Origin: Blastococcus sp. LR1
GTDB lineage: Bacteria; Actinomycetota; Actinomycetes; Mycobacteriales; Geodermatophilaceae
Length of the DNA stretch: 64,000 nt
Direction: 5' to 3'
Assembly (NCBI RefSeq): GCF_020166105.1
Contig: NZ_JAIUJY010000004.1
Location: forward strand, 186,001 to 250,000
Of this stretch, positions 3,306 to 64,000 are shown one piece after another. The notes under the pieces are model-generated. The model did no database searches, had not been told where the DNA came from, and saw nothing but the letters and a program-made list of their open reading frames with translations. Both the position numbers and the translations under genes were made by a program. Position 1 is the first letter of the stretch; every line of letters begins with the position of its first letter.

Positions 3306-5888
<2,583 letters not shown>

Positions 5889-15558: not shown

Positions 15559-15965
15559 CGGTGACGCACTCCCACAACCTGCTGGGCGAGCCCGCCCCCA
15601 CGCTGCTGCCGGCGAACCCCGAGGCCGACGCCGCCCTCGCTGCCGGCACCCCCGCGGCCGAGGTCGCGGCGAACCACCCGACGGTGAGCGCCGCCTGGGG
15701 CGCGCTCGCCGAGGCGGCGCTGGCTGACGGCCGCACGATCGAGGCCTACGCTTACGCCCGCACCGGCTACCACCGCGGGCTCGACGCGCTGCGCCGCAAC
15801 GGCTGGAAGGGCTACGGCCCGGCGCCGTGGTCGCACGAGCCCAACCGCGGCTTCCTTCGCTGCGTCACGGTGCTGGCGAAGGCCGCCGAGGCGATCGGCG
15901 AGACGGACGAGCAGGAGCGCTGCACCCAGCTGCTGCGCGACTGCGACCCGACGCTCGCTCCGTAG
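15555..15965 (+). CDS. DUF3151 family protein
   Basis: A 136-aa actinobacterial protein of unknown function that commonly sits after fba. Recognisable parts are 'NLLGEPAPTLLP' at the N-terminus, then 'YAYARTGYHRGLDALRRNGW' and 'GYGPAPWSHEPNRGFLRC', which form a compact helical domain. GTG 15555 overlaps the fbaA stop (GTGA); GTG 15561 is an alternative two codons later. Probably co-translated with the aldolase. Confidence 0.88.
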   Translation: MTVTHSHNLLGEPAPTLLPANPEADAALAAGTPAAEVAANHPTVSAAWGALAEAALADGRTIEAYAYARTGYHRGLDALRRNGWKGYGPAPWSHEPNRGFLRCVTVLAKAAEAIGETDEQERCTQLLRDCDPTLAP

Positions 15966-27133: not shown

Positions 27134-29584
27134 TCAGCGGTAGCTGACTGTCCGTCGTCCGGTGGGGACGTCGAACGTGATCGACCCGCCCTGGAACGTC
27201 TGCCGGATGGTCGAGCCGGCGCGCAGTTCGCCGGACGTCGGGTAGCCCAGCCGGCCGTTCTCCCAGCCCTGTCCGGCCCACGCGTCGCGGATCGCACCGC
27301 GGACCGCGTGCGCACCGGTCGACGGCGACCAGTAGATGCTCCCGGACTGGAAGATCTGGCCGCGGCCACCGCGCAGCGCGATCTCCTCGGAGACCGGGTA
27401 GCCCAGGGGGCCGGTCTCCCAGCCGGTGCGGCCCCAGGCGTCGCGGATCGCGCCGCGCACGGTGTTCGCCCCGGTCGACGGCGTCCAATAGACGGCGCCG
27501 CCCTGGAACGGCTGCCAACGCCCGCCCCGGAGCGTCATGTCCCCGGAGGTCGGGTATCCCAGCGGGCCGTTCTCGAAGCCCGAGCGGCCCCAGGCGGCAT
27601 AGATCGCGCCGAGGACGGCGTGCGCGCCGCTGCCGGGCGACCAGAACATGGTCCCGCCGGAGAAGAACTGCCCGCGTCCACCGCGGAGCAGCAGCTCCTC
27701 GGAGGTGGGCCGGCCCACGGGTGCCTTCTCGTAACCCGCCTTCCCCCAGGCCTTTTCGATGGCGCCCACAACCAGGCGGGCACCGCCGGACGGCGACCAC
27801 CAGATGGTGCCGCCCTGGAACGACTGCCGGGCGCCGCCGGGGACGGCGACCTCGCCGGACGTCGGGTAGCCGAGCGGGCCGTTCTCCCAGCCCGACCGAG
27901 CCCAGGCATCGCGGACCGCGCCCCGGACCGCCTGCGCCCCTGTCGCGGGTGACCAGTAGACGGATCCGCCGGTGAACAGCTGGAAGCGCCCGCCGCGCAG
28001 CGCCTTCTCGGCGCCGGTCGGCTCGCCGAGCGGTCCGGCGTCCCACCCCGACCGCTCCCAGGCGGGCTGCAGGGCGGCGCTGACCACGAGCCCGTCGTTG
28101 GACGGCGACCACCAGATGGTGCCGCCCTGGAACGACTGCCGGAGGCCCCGGTCGGACTCGACCTCGTCGGCCACCGGGTAGCCCAGAGCTCCCTTCTCGA
28201 CGCCGGACGCGGCATAGCGGTCCCAGATCGGGCTGCTCACGCCGTGCGAGCCGGTCCTCGCGCTCCAGTAGACGTCCCCGCCCTCGAACTCCTGCATGAC
28301 CCCGTCGCGCAGGGCCACCTGCTCGCTGACCGGGTAGCCCAGAGGGCCTTCCTCCCAGCCGCTCGCGGCCCACCCGTCTTCCATGACCTGTCGGACGACC
28401 AGTACGGGCGTGGAGGAGGAGTCCCAGATGCTGCCGCCCTCGAAGAGCTGCCCGCAGCCGGAGTCTCGGTACCCGCACTCGTGCTCGCCGAGCGGGAAGC
28501 CGAGGTCACCGGCTGGTCCCGCCACGCGCGAGTAGGCGGCGGCGAAGGGCGCCCGGATCGAGAAAGGGTCTGCGCCGTCCTGCTGCGTGATGAGGCCGTG
28601 CGCGTGGTCCTGCTGCCGCCCGCCCGGCACCGCGCGCTCCGGCACGGCCACCGGTCCGAGCGGGCCCCAGGTCCAGCCCGACTCGCGGAAGTACCGGCCG
28701 ATGGTGCTGATCTGCACGGGAGTCTCGGCGACGGCCGCGGACATCGCGCTCTCGGGGGTCGCCGAGGTGCCGGTCTCGACCGCCAGGTGCTGCACCTGGT
28801 AGCTGTACTGGCGCCCCGTGACCAGGCCGCTCTCGTCGAACCGGGGCACGTCCGTCGTGGCCAGCGGGGAGCCGTCCCGGTAGACCTGCCACGGACCGGT
28901 CGCACCATCGTTGTCCCAGCTGAGGTGCAAGGACGTCGGGTCGTCCGCCGGCACCACGTTCAGATCCGCGGGCGCCGACGGCCGGCGCCCGCGCGTCACC
29001 GACTCCGAGTTCCGCCCGCCGACGGCAGCGCCGTTGACAGCGGAGATCGAGTAGGTGTGGGTCGCCTCGTCCGGGATGCCGGTGTCGGTCCACGTCAGCT
29101 CGGTCGTGGTGTGGAACAGCACCCCGGAGCGGAAAATCCGGTACTCGACGGCGTGCTCCGTGGCGGACCAGGTCAGCGTCGCCGTGTCCGCGGTCTGGGT
29201 GATGCCCACACCGGTGACCTGGCGGGGCTGCACGTAGAGGTGCGCGGTCACGGTGGCGGTAGCCGTGTTCCCGTGGCCGTCAGAGACGGTGTACGTGAAC
29301 GAGTCGACGCCCGACTCGTACGGGCGCGGCTTGTAGTAGAGCTTGTCGTACTGGAGGTAGGCATCGCCCTTCGACGCCGGGGTCACGGCGGTGTAGACGA
29401 GCGCGTCGCCATCGGGGTCCCAGTCGTTCCGCAGGGCGCCGACCAGGAAGATGACGGCGCCCGTGTGGCCGACCGTGATGGTGTCGTCCCTTGCCACAGG
29501 CGGCCGGTTCTCCCCCTCGGCCGAGGCCGGCGTGGCGCTCGCGAGCACGAGACCAGCGGACAGAACAGTGATCAGGCGTCGCAC
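27134..29584 (-). CDS. Secreted LGFP-repeat protein with Ig-like and Fn3 domains
   Basis: An 816-aa exported protein starting at GTG 29584 (GAGGAGGG just upstream). The signal peptide is 'VRRLITVLSAGLVLASATPASA'-like, given in part. Next come a bacterial Ig-like domain (about 30-115; 'NRPPVARDDTITVG', 'NDWDPDGDALVY'), two fibronectin-III-like domains (about 120-300), and nine LGFP repeats of about 54 aa with 'SGWENGPLGYP', 'FQGGTIWWSP' and 'AIRDAW' blocks. LGFP modules bind or anchor to the actinobacterial envelope (as in PS1/Csp1). No catalytic domain is seen, so an envelope-bound adhesin or structural protein is likely. Confidence 0.85.
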   Translation of the reverse strand: MRRLITVLSAGLVLASATPASAEGENRPPVARDDTITVGHTGAVIFLVGALRNDWDPDGDALVYTAVTPASKGDAYLQYDKLYYKPRPYESGVDSFTYTVSDGHGNTATATVTAHLYVQPRQVTGVGITQTADTATLTWSATEHAVEYRIFRSGVLFHTTTELTWTDTGIPDEATHTYSISAVNGAAVGGRNSESVTRGRRPSAPADLNVVPADDPTSLHLSWDNDGATGPWQVYRDGSPLATTDVPRFDESGLVTGRQYSYQVQHLAVETGTSATPESAMSAAVAETPVQISTIGRYFRESGWTWGPLGPVAVPERAVPGGRQQDHAHGLITQQDGADPFSIRAPFAAAYSRVAGPAGDLGFPLGEHECGYRDSGCGQLFEGGSIWDSSSTPVLVVRQVMEDGWAASGWEEGPLGYPVSEQVALRDGVMQEFEGGDVYWSARTGSHGVSSPIWDRYAASGVEKGALGYPVADEVESDRGLRQSFQGGTIWWSPSNDGLVVSAALQPAWERSGWDAGPLGEPTGAEKALRGGRFQLFTGGSVYWSPATGAQAVRGAVRDAWARSGWENGPLGYPTSGEVAVPGGARQSFQGGTIWWSPSGGARLVVGAIEKAWGKAGYEKAPVGRPTSEELLLRGGRGQFFSGGTMFWSPGSGAHAVLGAIYAAWGRSGFENGPLGYPTSGDMTLRGGRWQPFQGGAVYWTPSTGANTVRGAIRDAWGRTGWETGPLGYPVSEEIALRGGRGQIFQSGSIYWSPSTGAHAVRGAIRDAWAGQGWENGRLGYPTSGELRAGSTIRQTFQGGSITFDVPTGRRTVSYR
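27150..28520 (-). repeat. Nine tandem LGFP repeats (about 160 bp unit)
   Basis: The coding repeats recur at nucleotide level, for example blocks encoding 'FQGGTIWWSPS' at about 28105 and 27800. Repeats 4-9 are most alike; the first contains two cysteines ('CGYRDSGCGQLF') that none of the others have. Confidence 0.75.
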
Positions 29585-61419: not shown

Positions 61420-61492
61420 GGGCCTCTAGCTCAACTGGCAGAGCAGCGGACTTTTAATCCGCGGGTTGTGGGTTCGATCCCCACGGGGCCCA
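61420..61492 (+). tRNA. tRNA-Lys (TTT), integration site
   Basis: Acceptor GGGCCTC/GGGGCCC, D-loop 'TAGCTCAACTGGCA', anticodon stem CGGA with loop CTTTTAA (anticodon TTT), T-loop GGTTCGATCC. 73 nt, CCA not encoded. The integrase gene begins on the 3' side and runs antisense through this tRNA, which marks its 3' end as the probable attL site of the element. Confidence 0.95.
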
Positions 61493-62646
61493 CCGCGTTG
61501 ACCTGGGCGTTTTCCCTTCGTCGGAGTCTCGGCTGCTGGCCGCGCCCACACGGCGCCCACACGCGCGTCCGTGGCTGCCCGCGCGGCGGCGTCCATCCGG
61601 TCGGCCAAAGCGGCTAGGTCGTCGTCGAACAGGCCCGAGTACACGTCCAGCGTCATGGCCGCCGAGGCGTGCCCGAGCATCCGCTGGACGCTCTTGACGG
61701 TCGCGCCGCTGGCGACGGCGAGAGAGGCGGCGGTGTGCCGGAGGTCGTGTGGGGTGACGTCGCTCAGCCCGGCCGTCCGGACCGCCGGATCGAAGACGGC
61801 CCGACGCCAGTTCCGCAGCCGCAGCACCGTGCCGCTGGCCGTGGTCCTCAGCAGGTCGTCGCCCTGCTTGCCCTCGCAGTGGCGGGCCAGCGACTCGGCG
61901 AGGGTCGCGGGCAGGGGCACGGTCCGCTGCTGATGGGTCTTCGGTGTGCCGAACTCCAGCCGCCCGCCGACTTCGGTGACCGCCTCGGCGATGGTGAGCC
62001 GGCGCCGGAGGAAGTCGACCCGTCGGACCCGCAGGGCGGCCATCTCGCCGAAGCGCAGTCCGGTGTAGGCGAGCAGCCGTATGACGTCCCCGTCCTCACC
62101 CGCCGCGTCGGCGAGCCGCTCGACCTCGTCATGGTTGAGGAACCTCGGCTCCTGCCGCGTCACTCGGGGCAGGGGTACGCGCTCGGCCGGGTTGCGGGGG
62201 ATGCGCCCGTCGCGGACGGCGAGGCCCAGGAGGAGTGAGAAGACGCGGTGGGCCTGGCGGACCGTGCCCGGGGCGGATCCCTGCGTCAGCAGCTCAGCCA
62301 CCCAGACGGCGACGTCGGCGTGGGTGACGTCGGCGAGCCGGTACCGACTCCACGACGGCAGGACGTGGGTCCGCAGGAGGTTCTCGTACCGGTAGAGGGT
62401 GCTCGGCTTGACCCCGGTCTGCGAGGACAGCCATCGATCGGACCACTCCTCGACGGTGATCCGGCCTCGGACTGGCGCCGTCCACGTTTGCGTGACCATG
62501 GCTGACGTAGCCTCATCCAGCCAGCGCTGCGCATCTACCTTCCGCGCAAAGCGCCTCTCGTGCTGACGGCCGCCTGGGTCGCGATACCGGGCGCGATAGC
62601 GGGTTGAGCCGTCGCTGAGCGTGATGCGGGTGATCGAGCCGTCCAT
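61426..62646 (-). CDS. int: Tyrosine recombinase / integrase of an integrated element
   Basis: A 406-aa phage-type integrase from ATG 62646 (GGAGG about 6 nt upstream). AP2-like arm-binding N-terminus ('RYRARYRDPGGRQHERRF', 'DAQRWLDEATSAM'), core-binding SAM-like domain (about 65-150), catalytic domain (about 165-380) with Arg in 'AYTGLRFGEMAAL', Lys in 'FGTPKTHQQR', 'DVTPHDLRHTAASLAV', 'QRMLGHASAAMT' and the nucleophile Tyr in 'LDVYSGLF'. The last 21 residues ('THNPRIKSPLLCQLS' etc.) are translated antisense across tRNA-Lys, so the true tail depends on the attachment site. Probably catalyses integration and excision. Confidence 0.93.
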   Translation of the reverse strand: MDGSITRITLSDGSTRYRARYRDPGGRQHERRFARKVDAQRWLDEATSAMVTQTWTAPVRGRITVEEWSDRWLSSQTGVKPSTLYRYENLLRTHVLPSWSRYRLADVTHADVAVWVAELLTQGSAPGTVRQAHRVFSLLLGLAVRDGRIPRNPAERVPLPRVTRQEPRFLNHDEVERLADAAGEDGDVIRLLAYTGLRFGEMAALRVRRVDFLRRRLTIAEAVTEVGGRLEFGTPKTHQQRTVPLPATLAESLARHCEGKQGDDLLRTTASGTVLRLRNWRRAVFDPAVRTAGLSDVTPHDLRHTAASLAVASGATVKSVQRMLGHASAAMTLDVYSGLFDDDLAALADRMDAAARAATDARVGAVWARPAAETPTKGKRPGQRGGPRGDRTHNPRIKSPLLCQLS

Positions 62647-62993
62647 GAGGACCTCCGTAGCGAGGTATGCGTCTCTCAGCGTGCCGGACGCCTCTGACAA
62701 CGGGCCGCCCTCGTCATCCCGGACATGATTATGCCGCTCTCCCCTGAGCAGCATAGTTCGCGCAAACTCCCGTTCTGAGCTGCATGTATAGGCGTGAAGT
62801 GTCGTTGGTCGAGGACGGCGCGTTCTGGGTGTCTTGCGGACTTTCTGCGGACTATGTGCGGACCGAGATTGTGAGACAGTCCGCCCGTCAGCCCCGCGCC
62901 TGGTCTGGGGGGCGTGACCGCTGTGGCGCCGGGGCGGCGGCCTGGTCCACTACCGCGCAGGTCAGTCAGGAGCCCGGTGTGGGATGACTTGGG
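62647..62993. other. 347-bp gap between integrase and toxin genes
   Basis: No convincing gene. A 67-codon open frame on the plus strand (62784-62987) has no ribosome site and no protein-like pattern. The GC content is visibly lower here (for example 62730-62880) than in the core genome, and the gap holds an 11-bp-period array (62835-62884). It is a likely place for attP arm sites and the int promoter. Confidence 0.6.
62835..62884. repeat. Iteron-like array of TGCGGAC
   Basis: Three direct copies of TGCGGAC start at 62835, 62846 and 62857, exactly 11 bp apart, with an inverted GTCCGC at 62879-62884. Phased repeats of this kind suit binding by an integrase arm-domain, excisionase or replication initiator. 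Confidence 0.6.
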
Positions 62994-63551
62994 TCAGGCC
63001 TGCCTGGGCGGGACGGCGCGGAGCTGGCGTGGGTCGGCCGGCAGCGTGTTCCAGGTCTCCTCGGTGCGCACCACCGGCATCTCCCGCAGGGTGATCCGTT
63101 CCCGGAAGAGCGCGAGCGTCTCGCCCAGGCCGGTGGCCGAGGGGGCGAGGACGGCATGCAGCTCGAGCTGGTGGGCGGCGGCGGCGACGCGCTGGCAGGC
63201 GGCGTAGTCGTCGACCTCGGACCTCAGGTCGGCAGCGGAGAGTCCCACGGCGGCGACGTTGTGGGGGTTGGTGAGGTCGAGCACCGCGTCGACATCCACG
63301 GTGACGGTATAGAAGCGGCGCGGCTGCACAAGCTCGACGGGGATCCCGTAGGCCTCGACCAGGTGCCTGTAGGCCTCGGCGGTGACTGACGTCGGTGGAC
63401 GGCCGAGGTAGATGACGGGAAACGTCTCTCCCCAGCGTCCCTGGTCGCCGCCGGCGAAGGCGTCGCGGTTGACCGCCGCGTGTCGGTAGAAGGTGCCGTG
63501 CACGCTGATCGGTGGCACGGCCGCGACGCGTTCGGCGATGGAGCGCTGCAC
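62994..63551 (-). CDS. RES-domain toxin
   Basis: A 185-aa protein of the RES (COG5654) family; characterised members are toxins that degrade NAD+ (MbcT-like phosphorolysis or hydrolysis). Visible family pieces: 'HGTFYRHAAVNRDAF', 'QGRWGETFPVIYLGRPPTSV', 'TAEAYRHLVEAYGI' with the conserved Glu, and 'LAPSATGLGETLALF' at the C-terminus. The length equals MbcT. GTG 63551 starts 3 nt after the stop of the antitoxin gene, so the two are one operon. Located just inside an element integrated at tRNA-Lys. Confidence 0.82.
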   Translation of the reverse strand: MQRSIAERVAAVPPISVHGTFYRHAAVNRDAFAGGDQGRWGETFPVIYLGRPPTSVTAEAYRHLVEAYGIPVELVQPRRFYTVTVDVDAVLDLTNPHNVAAVGLSAADLRSEVDDYAACQRVAAAAHQLELHAVLAPSATGLGETLALFRERITLREMPVVRTEETWNTLPADPRQLRAVPPRQA

Positions 63552-63554
63552 GCC

Positions 63555-63953
63555 TTACCGAACCTTCGACCCGCCGGCGAGGCGCTGCACCAGTCGCAGC
63601 ACGGTCTCGAAGTCGCCTGCCTTCAGTACGTCGATCGGGCGGCGGTCGCCTAGGGCGCGTTGTCGGGCGTGCAGCCAGATGTCGATGCCTTCGGGCTTGT
63701 AGACGTCGGAGAGCTCTGCGATGACGTACTGCAGCTCCAGCAGCCGGTCGCGCTTGGTGCCCTCGGGCCGCGCGGCGCCGGCGGCCCATTTCTGCACTGC
63801 GCGCTCTCCGGCGCCGACGATCTCCCCGATCTCGGCGAGGGTGAGCGCGCGGCGCGTGTCGGCCACGACATGGCGGTAGACGGGGGAGTCTCCGGCCGGG
63901 TCGTGCGACGCAGGCTGGGACGCCGCCGCCGCGGCGGTGCGGGTCGGGCTCAT
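63555..63953 (-). CDS. Xre/MbcA-like antitoxin
   Basis: 132 aa. A disordered Ala/Ser N-terminus, an HTH (about 35-70; 'TLAEIGEIVGAGERAVQKWA'), and a DUF2384-like toxin-binding C-terminus ('GIDIWLHARQRALGDRRPID' then 'VLKAGDFETVLRLVQRL'), the signature of Xre-type antitoxins of RES toxins. AAGGAGA is 8 nt before ATG 63953. The antitoxin comes first in the operon, as usual, allowing autorepression. The promoter lies at the window edge (63954-64000). Confidence 0.82.
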   Translation of the reverse strand: MSPTRTAAAAASQPASHDPAGDSPVYRHVVADTRRALTLAEIGEIVGAGERAVQKWAAGAARPEGTKRDRLLELQYVIAELSDVYKPEGIDIWLHARQRALGDRRPIDVLKAGDFETVLRLVQRLAGGSKVR

Positions 63954-64000
63954 CTGACTGGTCTCCTTCTGAGGCAGCGCCGATCGGTCCGTTCGGCCTG

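Follow-up and report, generated by a model that had tools for sequence, protein, structure and literature searches.

A RES-Xre pair beside a tRNA-Lys gene of Blastococcus

A toxin-antitoxin pair of the RES-Xre type lies at the right-hand end of a 64,000-nucleotide stretch of Blastococcus sp. LR1 (the window: positions 186001-250000 of contig C4, NZ_JAIUJY010000004.1, in a 4.02-Mb genome), next to the integrase of an element inserted at a tRNA-Lys gene. A preliminary description of the window had recognized both partners and called them a two-gene operon. Their reading frames lie where it placed them, 3 nt apart and on the minus strand (left unsaid there), and the antitoxin comes first, in what appears to be an operon layout. 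That part of the description stands, but it is incomplete: a third gene, transcribed divergently just outside the window and predicted to encode a protein with the fold of tRNA-guanine transglycosylase (TGT), is linked to the pair. Positions beyond 64000 continue the numbering of the window (window-equivalent).

62994..63551, minus strand: RES-domain toxin, MbcT-like, 185 aa, GTG start (PF08808)
63555..63953, minus strand: Xre/MbcA/ParS-type antitoxin, 132 aa, first gene of the operon (PF09722; MbcA of 6fkg)
63954..64114: divergent promoter region, 161 bp, of which the first 47 bp (63954..64000) are in the window and the rest outside
64115-65341 (window-equivalent; C4 250115-251341), plus strand: gene for the predicted TGT-fold protein, 408 aa, outside the window

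The antitoxin frame opens with an ATG at 63953, preceded by AGAAGGAGA, and closes at 63555; the toxin frame runs from 63551 to 62994. Profile searches, which the preliminary description had suggested, and a structure comparison bear out its identification of the partners. The toxin matches the Pfam RES family (PF08808, E=2.6e-13, 50.7 bits against a cut-off of 23.2) and the antitoxin Xre_MbcA_ParS_C (PF09722, E=2.7e-7, 30.9 bits against 24.5), its MbcA-like N-terminal part being followed by the C-terminal toxin-binding domain. By sequence, the sole match of the toxin in the PDB at E<=1 is MbcT (6fkg, E=9.2e-15), and the best match of the antitoxin is MbcA of the same entry (E=1.1e-16). MbcT-MbcA (Rv1989c-Rv1990c), a nicotinamide adenine dinucleotide (NAD+) phosphorylase system of M. 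tuberculosis, is thus the best solved match by sequence and by fold, with 31% identity in the structural alignment. Profile, fold and attachment-site (att) evidence together support a RES-Xre toxin-antitoxin pair, and a RES search of the whole genome hits this single place. Of the R-E-S triad, Arg and Glu are present in 29/29 sequences; the Ser is taken up below. Since its nearest solved relative is MbcT, the toxin likely destroys NAD+; characterized members of the RES fold nevertheless vary in their chemistry, which includes a phosphorylase, a predicted glycohydrolase and an ADP-ribosyltransferase (PMC12457610).

A third protein with a predicted TGT fold

The open frame of the third gene begins at 64055 (428 aa to 65341); translation probably begins at an internal ATG (64115) and yields 408 aa, because many homologues are 400-415 residues long. 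The predicted structure shows a TGT fold, which we had suspected from a cysteine motif that we took to be of TGT type before the fold was predicted. Identity to TGT structures, bacterial TGT and archaeal ArcTGT alike, is 7-10%, and the third protein differs from them in its C-x4-CC-x13-H spacing. The residues concerned (C311, C316, C317 and H331) are conserved in 53/53 sequences of the family, and we infer that this Cys3-His set binds zinc. Asp64 is likewise found in 53/53 and is matched to TGT Asp102, while position 249, which is Glu in 49/53 and Glu or Gln in 52/53, is matched to Asp280; both matches follow strand order rather than a residue-level structural alignment and use what we take to be the TGT motif positions. 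The roles of Asp102 and Asp280 (Z. mobilis numbering) are those described for TGT in PMC6165067 and PMC3660597.

Sequence families are silent on this protein. It belongs to no Pfam, NCBIfam or PADLOC family, and a PDB profile search returned 0 matches at E<=10. A Pfam scan of the 53 members gave single-member matches only (the best, PF04168, at E=0.00024 in one member), and the TGT family itself, PF01702, is absent from the seven families matched by any member at E<=1. A forced local alignment of the third protein to TGT carries no weight alone.

The third gene travels with the pair

The third gene was first noticed beside the pair in relatives, even where the toxin is only ~45% identical. It occurs in 6/396 genomes of a phylum sample and 14/112 of a family set, 19 distinct genomes in total, and in 18 of these a scan of its surroundings showed adjacent Xre and RES genes; an additional genome with the trio (G057) came through the toxin search. 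All nine loci taken from named records carry the trio (seven are genomes already counted). Among 72,556 plasmid records, 12 have the third gene and the same 12 have the toxin (Clavibacter 8, Gordonia 2, Rhodococcus 1, Mycolicibacterium 1), adjacency having been inspected in four of these regions and read from coordinates in the other eight.

Such linkage bears directly on whether this could be an ordinary RES-Xre pair whose TGT-like gene is a neighbour kept by chance or by shared mobility. Pairs without the third gene are indeed common (RES is found in 21/396 phylum-sample genomes, the TGT-like gene in 6/396; the neighbourhood check of RES loci covered flanks of at most ~1.5 kb), but the adjacency persists to ~32-35% identity and, by profile, further still. 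It is seen in this element, across seven families of the genome sets and on plasmids from four genera; by eye, the remaining neighbours differ in five loci. In a RES tree of 32 rows (19 with and 13 without the third gene; near-identical copies and G207 excluded), the clade of the Blastococcus toxin has it in 13/13 rows, with support 95/96. We therefore regard a chance neighbour as quite unlikely.

Damaged loci suggest how the three genes depend on one another. On a plasmid of M. rufum an IS256 transposase gene interrupts the third gene, and in genome G191 it is only partly matched; in both, the toxin-antitoxin pair is open. Losses thus seem one-way: the pair survives damage to the third gene, and the third gene, bar one borderline match (G498), was not found off the pair. 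This argues against the third protein being a second antitoxin. It also argues against a self-marking scheme, in which the protein would mark the tRNA or DNA of its own cell and the toxin would fire when the mark is missing, like restriction-linked toxins. The predicted fold would suit such a scheme, and there is a precedent in DpdA, TGT paralogues that act on DNA and are reported from restriction-modification clusters (PMC6884629), but self-marking would make open pairs with a damaged third gene harmful, and we hold it to be highly improbable.

Direct repeats in the divergent region

Within the divergent region, 12-bp tandem direct repeats lie at about window-equivalent 64019-64066. Over 18 module loci, each of a distinct sequence and without G191 or the same-strand case G008, a lag of 12 gave a mean best identity of 0.52, against 0.36 to 0.43 for the other lags from 7 to 24. 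By shuffling, the lag-12 repeat reaches p<=0.05 in 11/18 loci, with p=0.016 at the Blastococcus locus; the G207 row was mis-bounded and is disregarded, which leaves 17 usable loci, still with 11 at p<=0.05. We had considered the repeats as a mark of the third gene and rejected this, since they are present in some pairs that lack it; for the same reason they fit an operator of Xre.

MbcA is reported to repress its own operon through a direct-repeat motif in the promoter, with Arg33 and Arg37 needed (PMC7291234), and in the sequence alignment of MbcA with the Blastococcus antitoxin these residues fall on R51 and K55 if a two-residue chain offset is assumed. Given this precedent and the 12-bp repeats found here, Xre likely co-represses the toxin-antitoxin operon and the third gene. 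The RES-Xre complex of Pseudomonas putida is reported to bind an imperfect inverted repeat (PMC12204516), whereas many loci here carry 12-bp direct repeats.

A candidate three-gene module

What the computation establishes is gene anatomy, predicted folds, linkage, repeats and mobility; NAD+ activity, co-repression, zinc binding and the part played by the TGT-fold protein go beyond it. The explanation that we favour, with confidence somewhat better than even, is a mobile three-gene module of an MbcT-like toxin, an Xre antitoxin and a co-repressed accessory TGT-fold protein. The RES toxin would consume NAD+, most likely by phosphorolysis, and Xre would neutralize it by inserting its C-terminal domain in the active site. 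Xre would also repress the divergent promoter through the 12-bp direct repeats, so that the divergently transcribed TGT-fold zinc protein would be co-repressed and rise together with the toxin. Because the pair persists in loci with a broken third gene or none, and no convincing case of the third gene off the pair came to light, this protein is most likely a toxin-dependent accessory that stands outside neutralization; it would sense nucleic acid, either tRNA or foreign DNA, or act on it, and would trigger or extend the toxin response. More tentatively, a large branch of actinobacterial RES toxins could be a three-part system in which the TGT-fold protein recognizes or alters tRNA or foreign DNA and turns on NAD+ depletion, a possibility to which we give clearly less credence than to the module itself.

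Several observations weigh against the module or parts of it. As regards the pair, the NCBIfam antitoxin models NF049845 (30.4 of 90 bits, E=3.2e-7) and TIGR02293 (24.1 of 57 bits) stay below their cut-offs, and the NCBIfam scan gave the toxin no RES model match. The column taken for the triad Ser is Ser in 11/29 sequences, including the Blastococcus toxin, and Ala in 18/29; MbcT, too, has Ala there and is yet said to possess the R-E-S triad (PMC12457610), so the column itself may be wrongly chosen. As regards the third protein, hhalign comparison of its family with 25 aligned TGTs gave no TGT relationship (E=0.47), so that the assignment rests on the predicted fold, and its function as sensor or effector is presumed. 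As regards linkage, 15 of the 21 RES-bearing phylum-sample genomes have no third-gene match genome-wide; the match in G498 (E=8.6e-4) lacks an adjacent RES gene; G207 has its toxin in pieces and a third-gene match lacking the first 62 positions; a remote third-gene-like frame seen by eye in G438 (L100) was missed by the profile; and the third gene is divergent from the pair everywhere except in G008. Only 4 label changes are needed on the RES tree (shuffled mean 10.3), but with long branches among the rows the association appears clustered rather than demonstrably of one origin. As regards regulation, the 12-bp repeats reach p<=0.05 upstream of 4/13 pairs without the third gene, and a sigma-70-like promoter was not found in the divergent region.

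Whether the third protein is an enzyme is a further difficulty of this kind. At the position matched to the TGT nucleophile it has Glu, which is reported at that position for the non-catalytic QTRT2 subunit (PMC6165067), so it may not be one. This tells against the TGT-fold protein as an active second effector that would work with the toxin to swap or excise a tRNA or DNA base in the course of the response, an idea for which the conservation of Asp64, of the Cys3-His set and of Glu or Gln at position 249 would speak, as would the existence of the DNA-acting DpdA paralogues. The hosts, moreover, mostly seem to be without the substrate pathway. A plain queuosine enzyme was rejected because canonical TGT passes its cut-off in only 1/18 module genomes (G469 has a further TGT match, below the cut-off). 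QueC passes it in 14/18, which at face value points the other way, but only G469 (256.7 bits) and G015 (79.4 bits) match the profile along its full length; the other matches are partial, most of them taking in just its first 57-64 of 210 positions and lying in open frames 540-920 codons long. On balance, we think an active second effector rather unlikely.

The favoured module can be set beside several known systems. It differs from MbcT-MbcA in that the Blastococcus pair shares its intergenic region with a divergent TGT-fold gene; we know of no such neighbour of the mbcTA operon in M. tuberculosis. Elsewhere in the family, NatT (of NatT-NatR, Pseudomonas aeruginosa) has a 'flap' region (PMC12204516), and ParT-ParS and VPA0770-0769 are described as an ADP-ribosyltransferase and a predicted one (PMC12457610). 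DpdA and QTRT2 are likened here by description, the comparison of structures being confined to TGT and ArcTGT.

A probable integrative mobilizable element as carrier

The preliminary description had also placed the pair in an element integrated at tRNA-Lys with a tyrosine integrase, and had proposed a look beyond base 64000. Both proved well founded: a pattern search for the tRNA 3' end found two copies in the genome, 20.6 kb apart and exact over 46 bp, and the third gene, a relaxase and attR lie on the far side of the window edge.

61420..61494, plus strand: tRNA-Lys (TTT), integration site (ARAGORN)
61426..62754, minus strand: tyrosine integrase, 3' end running into the tRNA-Lys gene (PF00589, E=7.8e-22; PF14659; PF22022)
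61450..61495: attL, 46-bp exact direct repeat, tRNA 3' end (C4 247450-247495)
78073-81735 (window-equivalent; C4 264073-267735): MobF/TrwC relaxase, outside the window
82039-82084 (window-equivalent; C4 268039-268084): attR, outside the window

The integrase, the att repeats at a tRNA gene and the relaxase are those of an integrative mobilizable element; no conjugation machinery was seen among the ten element reading frames scanned, a subset of those in the element. The integrase frame stops within the opposite-strand tRNA-Lys gene (window 61426-61494), so that the attachment site codes for its final residues. Besides the integrase, the pair and the third gene, the att copies enclose a 255-aa protein (L002 7704-8471) that has no Pfam match, is kept in relatives and gives a weak helix-turn-helix match in PHROGs (E=3.8e-5), and an ArdC-type antirestriction protein (PF08401, one part of it weakly metallopeptidase-like; L002 9719-10795, window-equivalent 67719-68795). 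Two very similar TerC genes (C4 255737-256960 and 262506-263570; window-equivalent 69737-70960 and 76506-77570) flank IS481- and IS5-type transposases (the IS5 assignment made by reading open frames), an ion channel, and a sodium/proton antiporter that is split between two frames. Two oversized tRNA predictions, an Asn (ATT) of 91 nt (window 27434-27524) and an Ala of 101 nt overlapping a TerC end (L002 11652-11752), are probably spurious.

Genome G015 is 99.9% identical in nucleotides across 8463 bp from the tRNA onward, its preceding flank being 80% identical, and modules with near-identical proteins are found in G013, G014, G018, G452 and G453. G021 has the same left gene and tRNA-Lys, followed ~0.6 kb on by right-flank homology, and no integrase match within the stretch fetched; it looks like an empty integration site. 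These comparisons suggest that the element is mobile and has spread recently between species. Other integrases or recombinases were noted in passing: in G009 (L044) a tRNA-Lys gene (5687-5761) is followed ~10 kb on by a second 3'-end copy (15647-15695) with a different integrase between them, probably another element, and in two other genomes frames that look by eye like tyrosine recombinases lie near the module (L037 4239-5162 and L038 5746-6726).

The location invites the reading that the pair is chiefly an addiction module for its element, a role in stabilization that the preliminary description had raised. The pair adjoins the integrase of a mobilizable element, relatives are on plasmids, and RES-Xre loci are reported to be over-represented on plasmids (55 loci there, 195 on chromosomes; PMC2701414). 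In G022, however, the same backbone (integrase 98% and relaxase 99% identical over the available part) carries other DNA at the module slot, and the toxin module is on another contig. The module is therefore cargo that the element can do without, which weakens the proposal; addiction as the chief role is possible but doubtful. By eye, the G022 slot (L045 5240-6801) holds an apparent short-chain dehydrogenase fragment and could be a site of cargo exchange.

A role in phage defence, also put forward in the preliminary description, is plausible but drew no support from our searches. In PADLOC the best match of the pair was RmrA for the antitoxin (E=0.033), with none for the toxin, the third protein or three relatives of the latter. 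In PHROGs the third protein reached E=0.013 and the toxin had no match; the toxin likewise matched nothing in phage records, and of eight stretches of viral contigs that matched a pattern none encoded a relative.

Implications

RES-Xre pairs on plasmids are already known (PMC2701414), and what is found here looks like an undescribed three-gene version of this two-gene system: our literature search, within the portions of text available to it, yielded no report of a TGT-fold partner, which thus appears new. What RES toxins do in the physiology of the cell is described as unresolved, and none is said to have been tied to immunity (PMC11535050); a partner that accompanies one RES branch offers a direct handle on what triggers the toxin. 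The data also indicate an unnamed family of predicted TGT-fold proteins, carried mostly by genomes without canonical TGT (17/18 module genomes have none over the cut-off). If the proposal is true, a large branch of actinobacterial RES toxins would form an NAD-based immunity or stress module in which a base-exchange fold, freed from queuosine chemistry, is coupled to a RES toxin.
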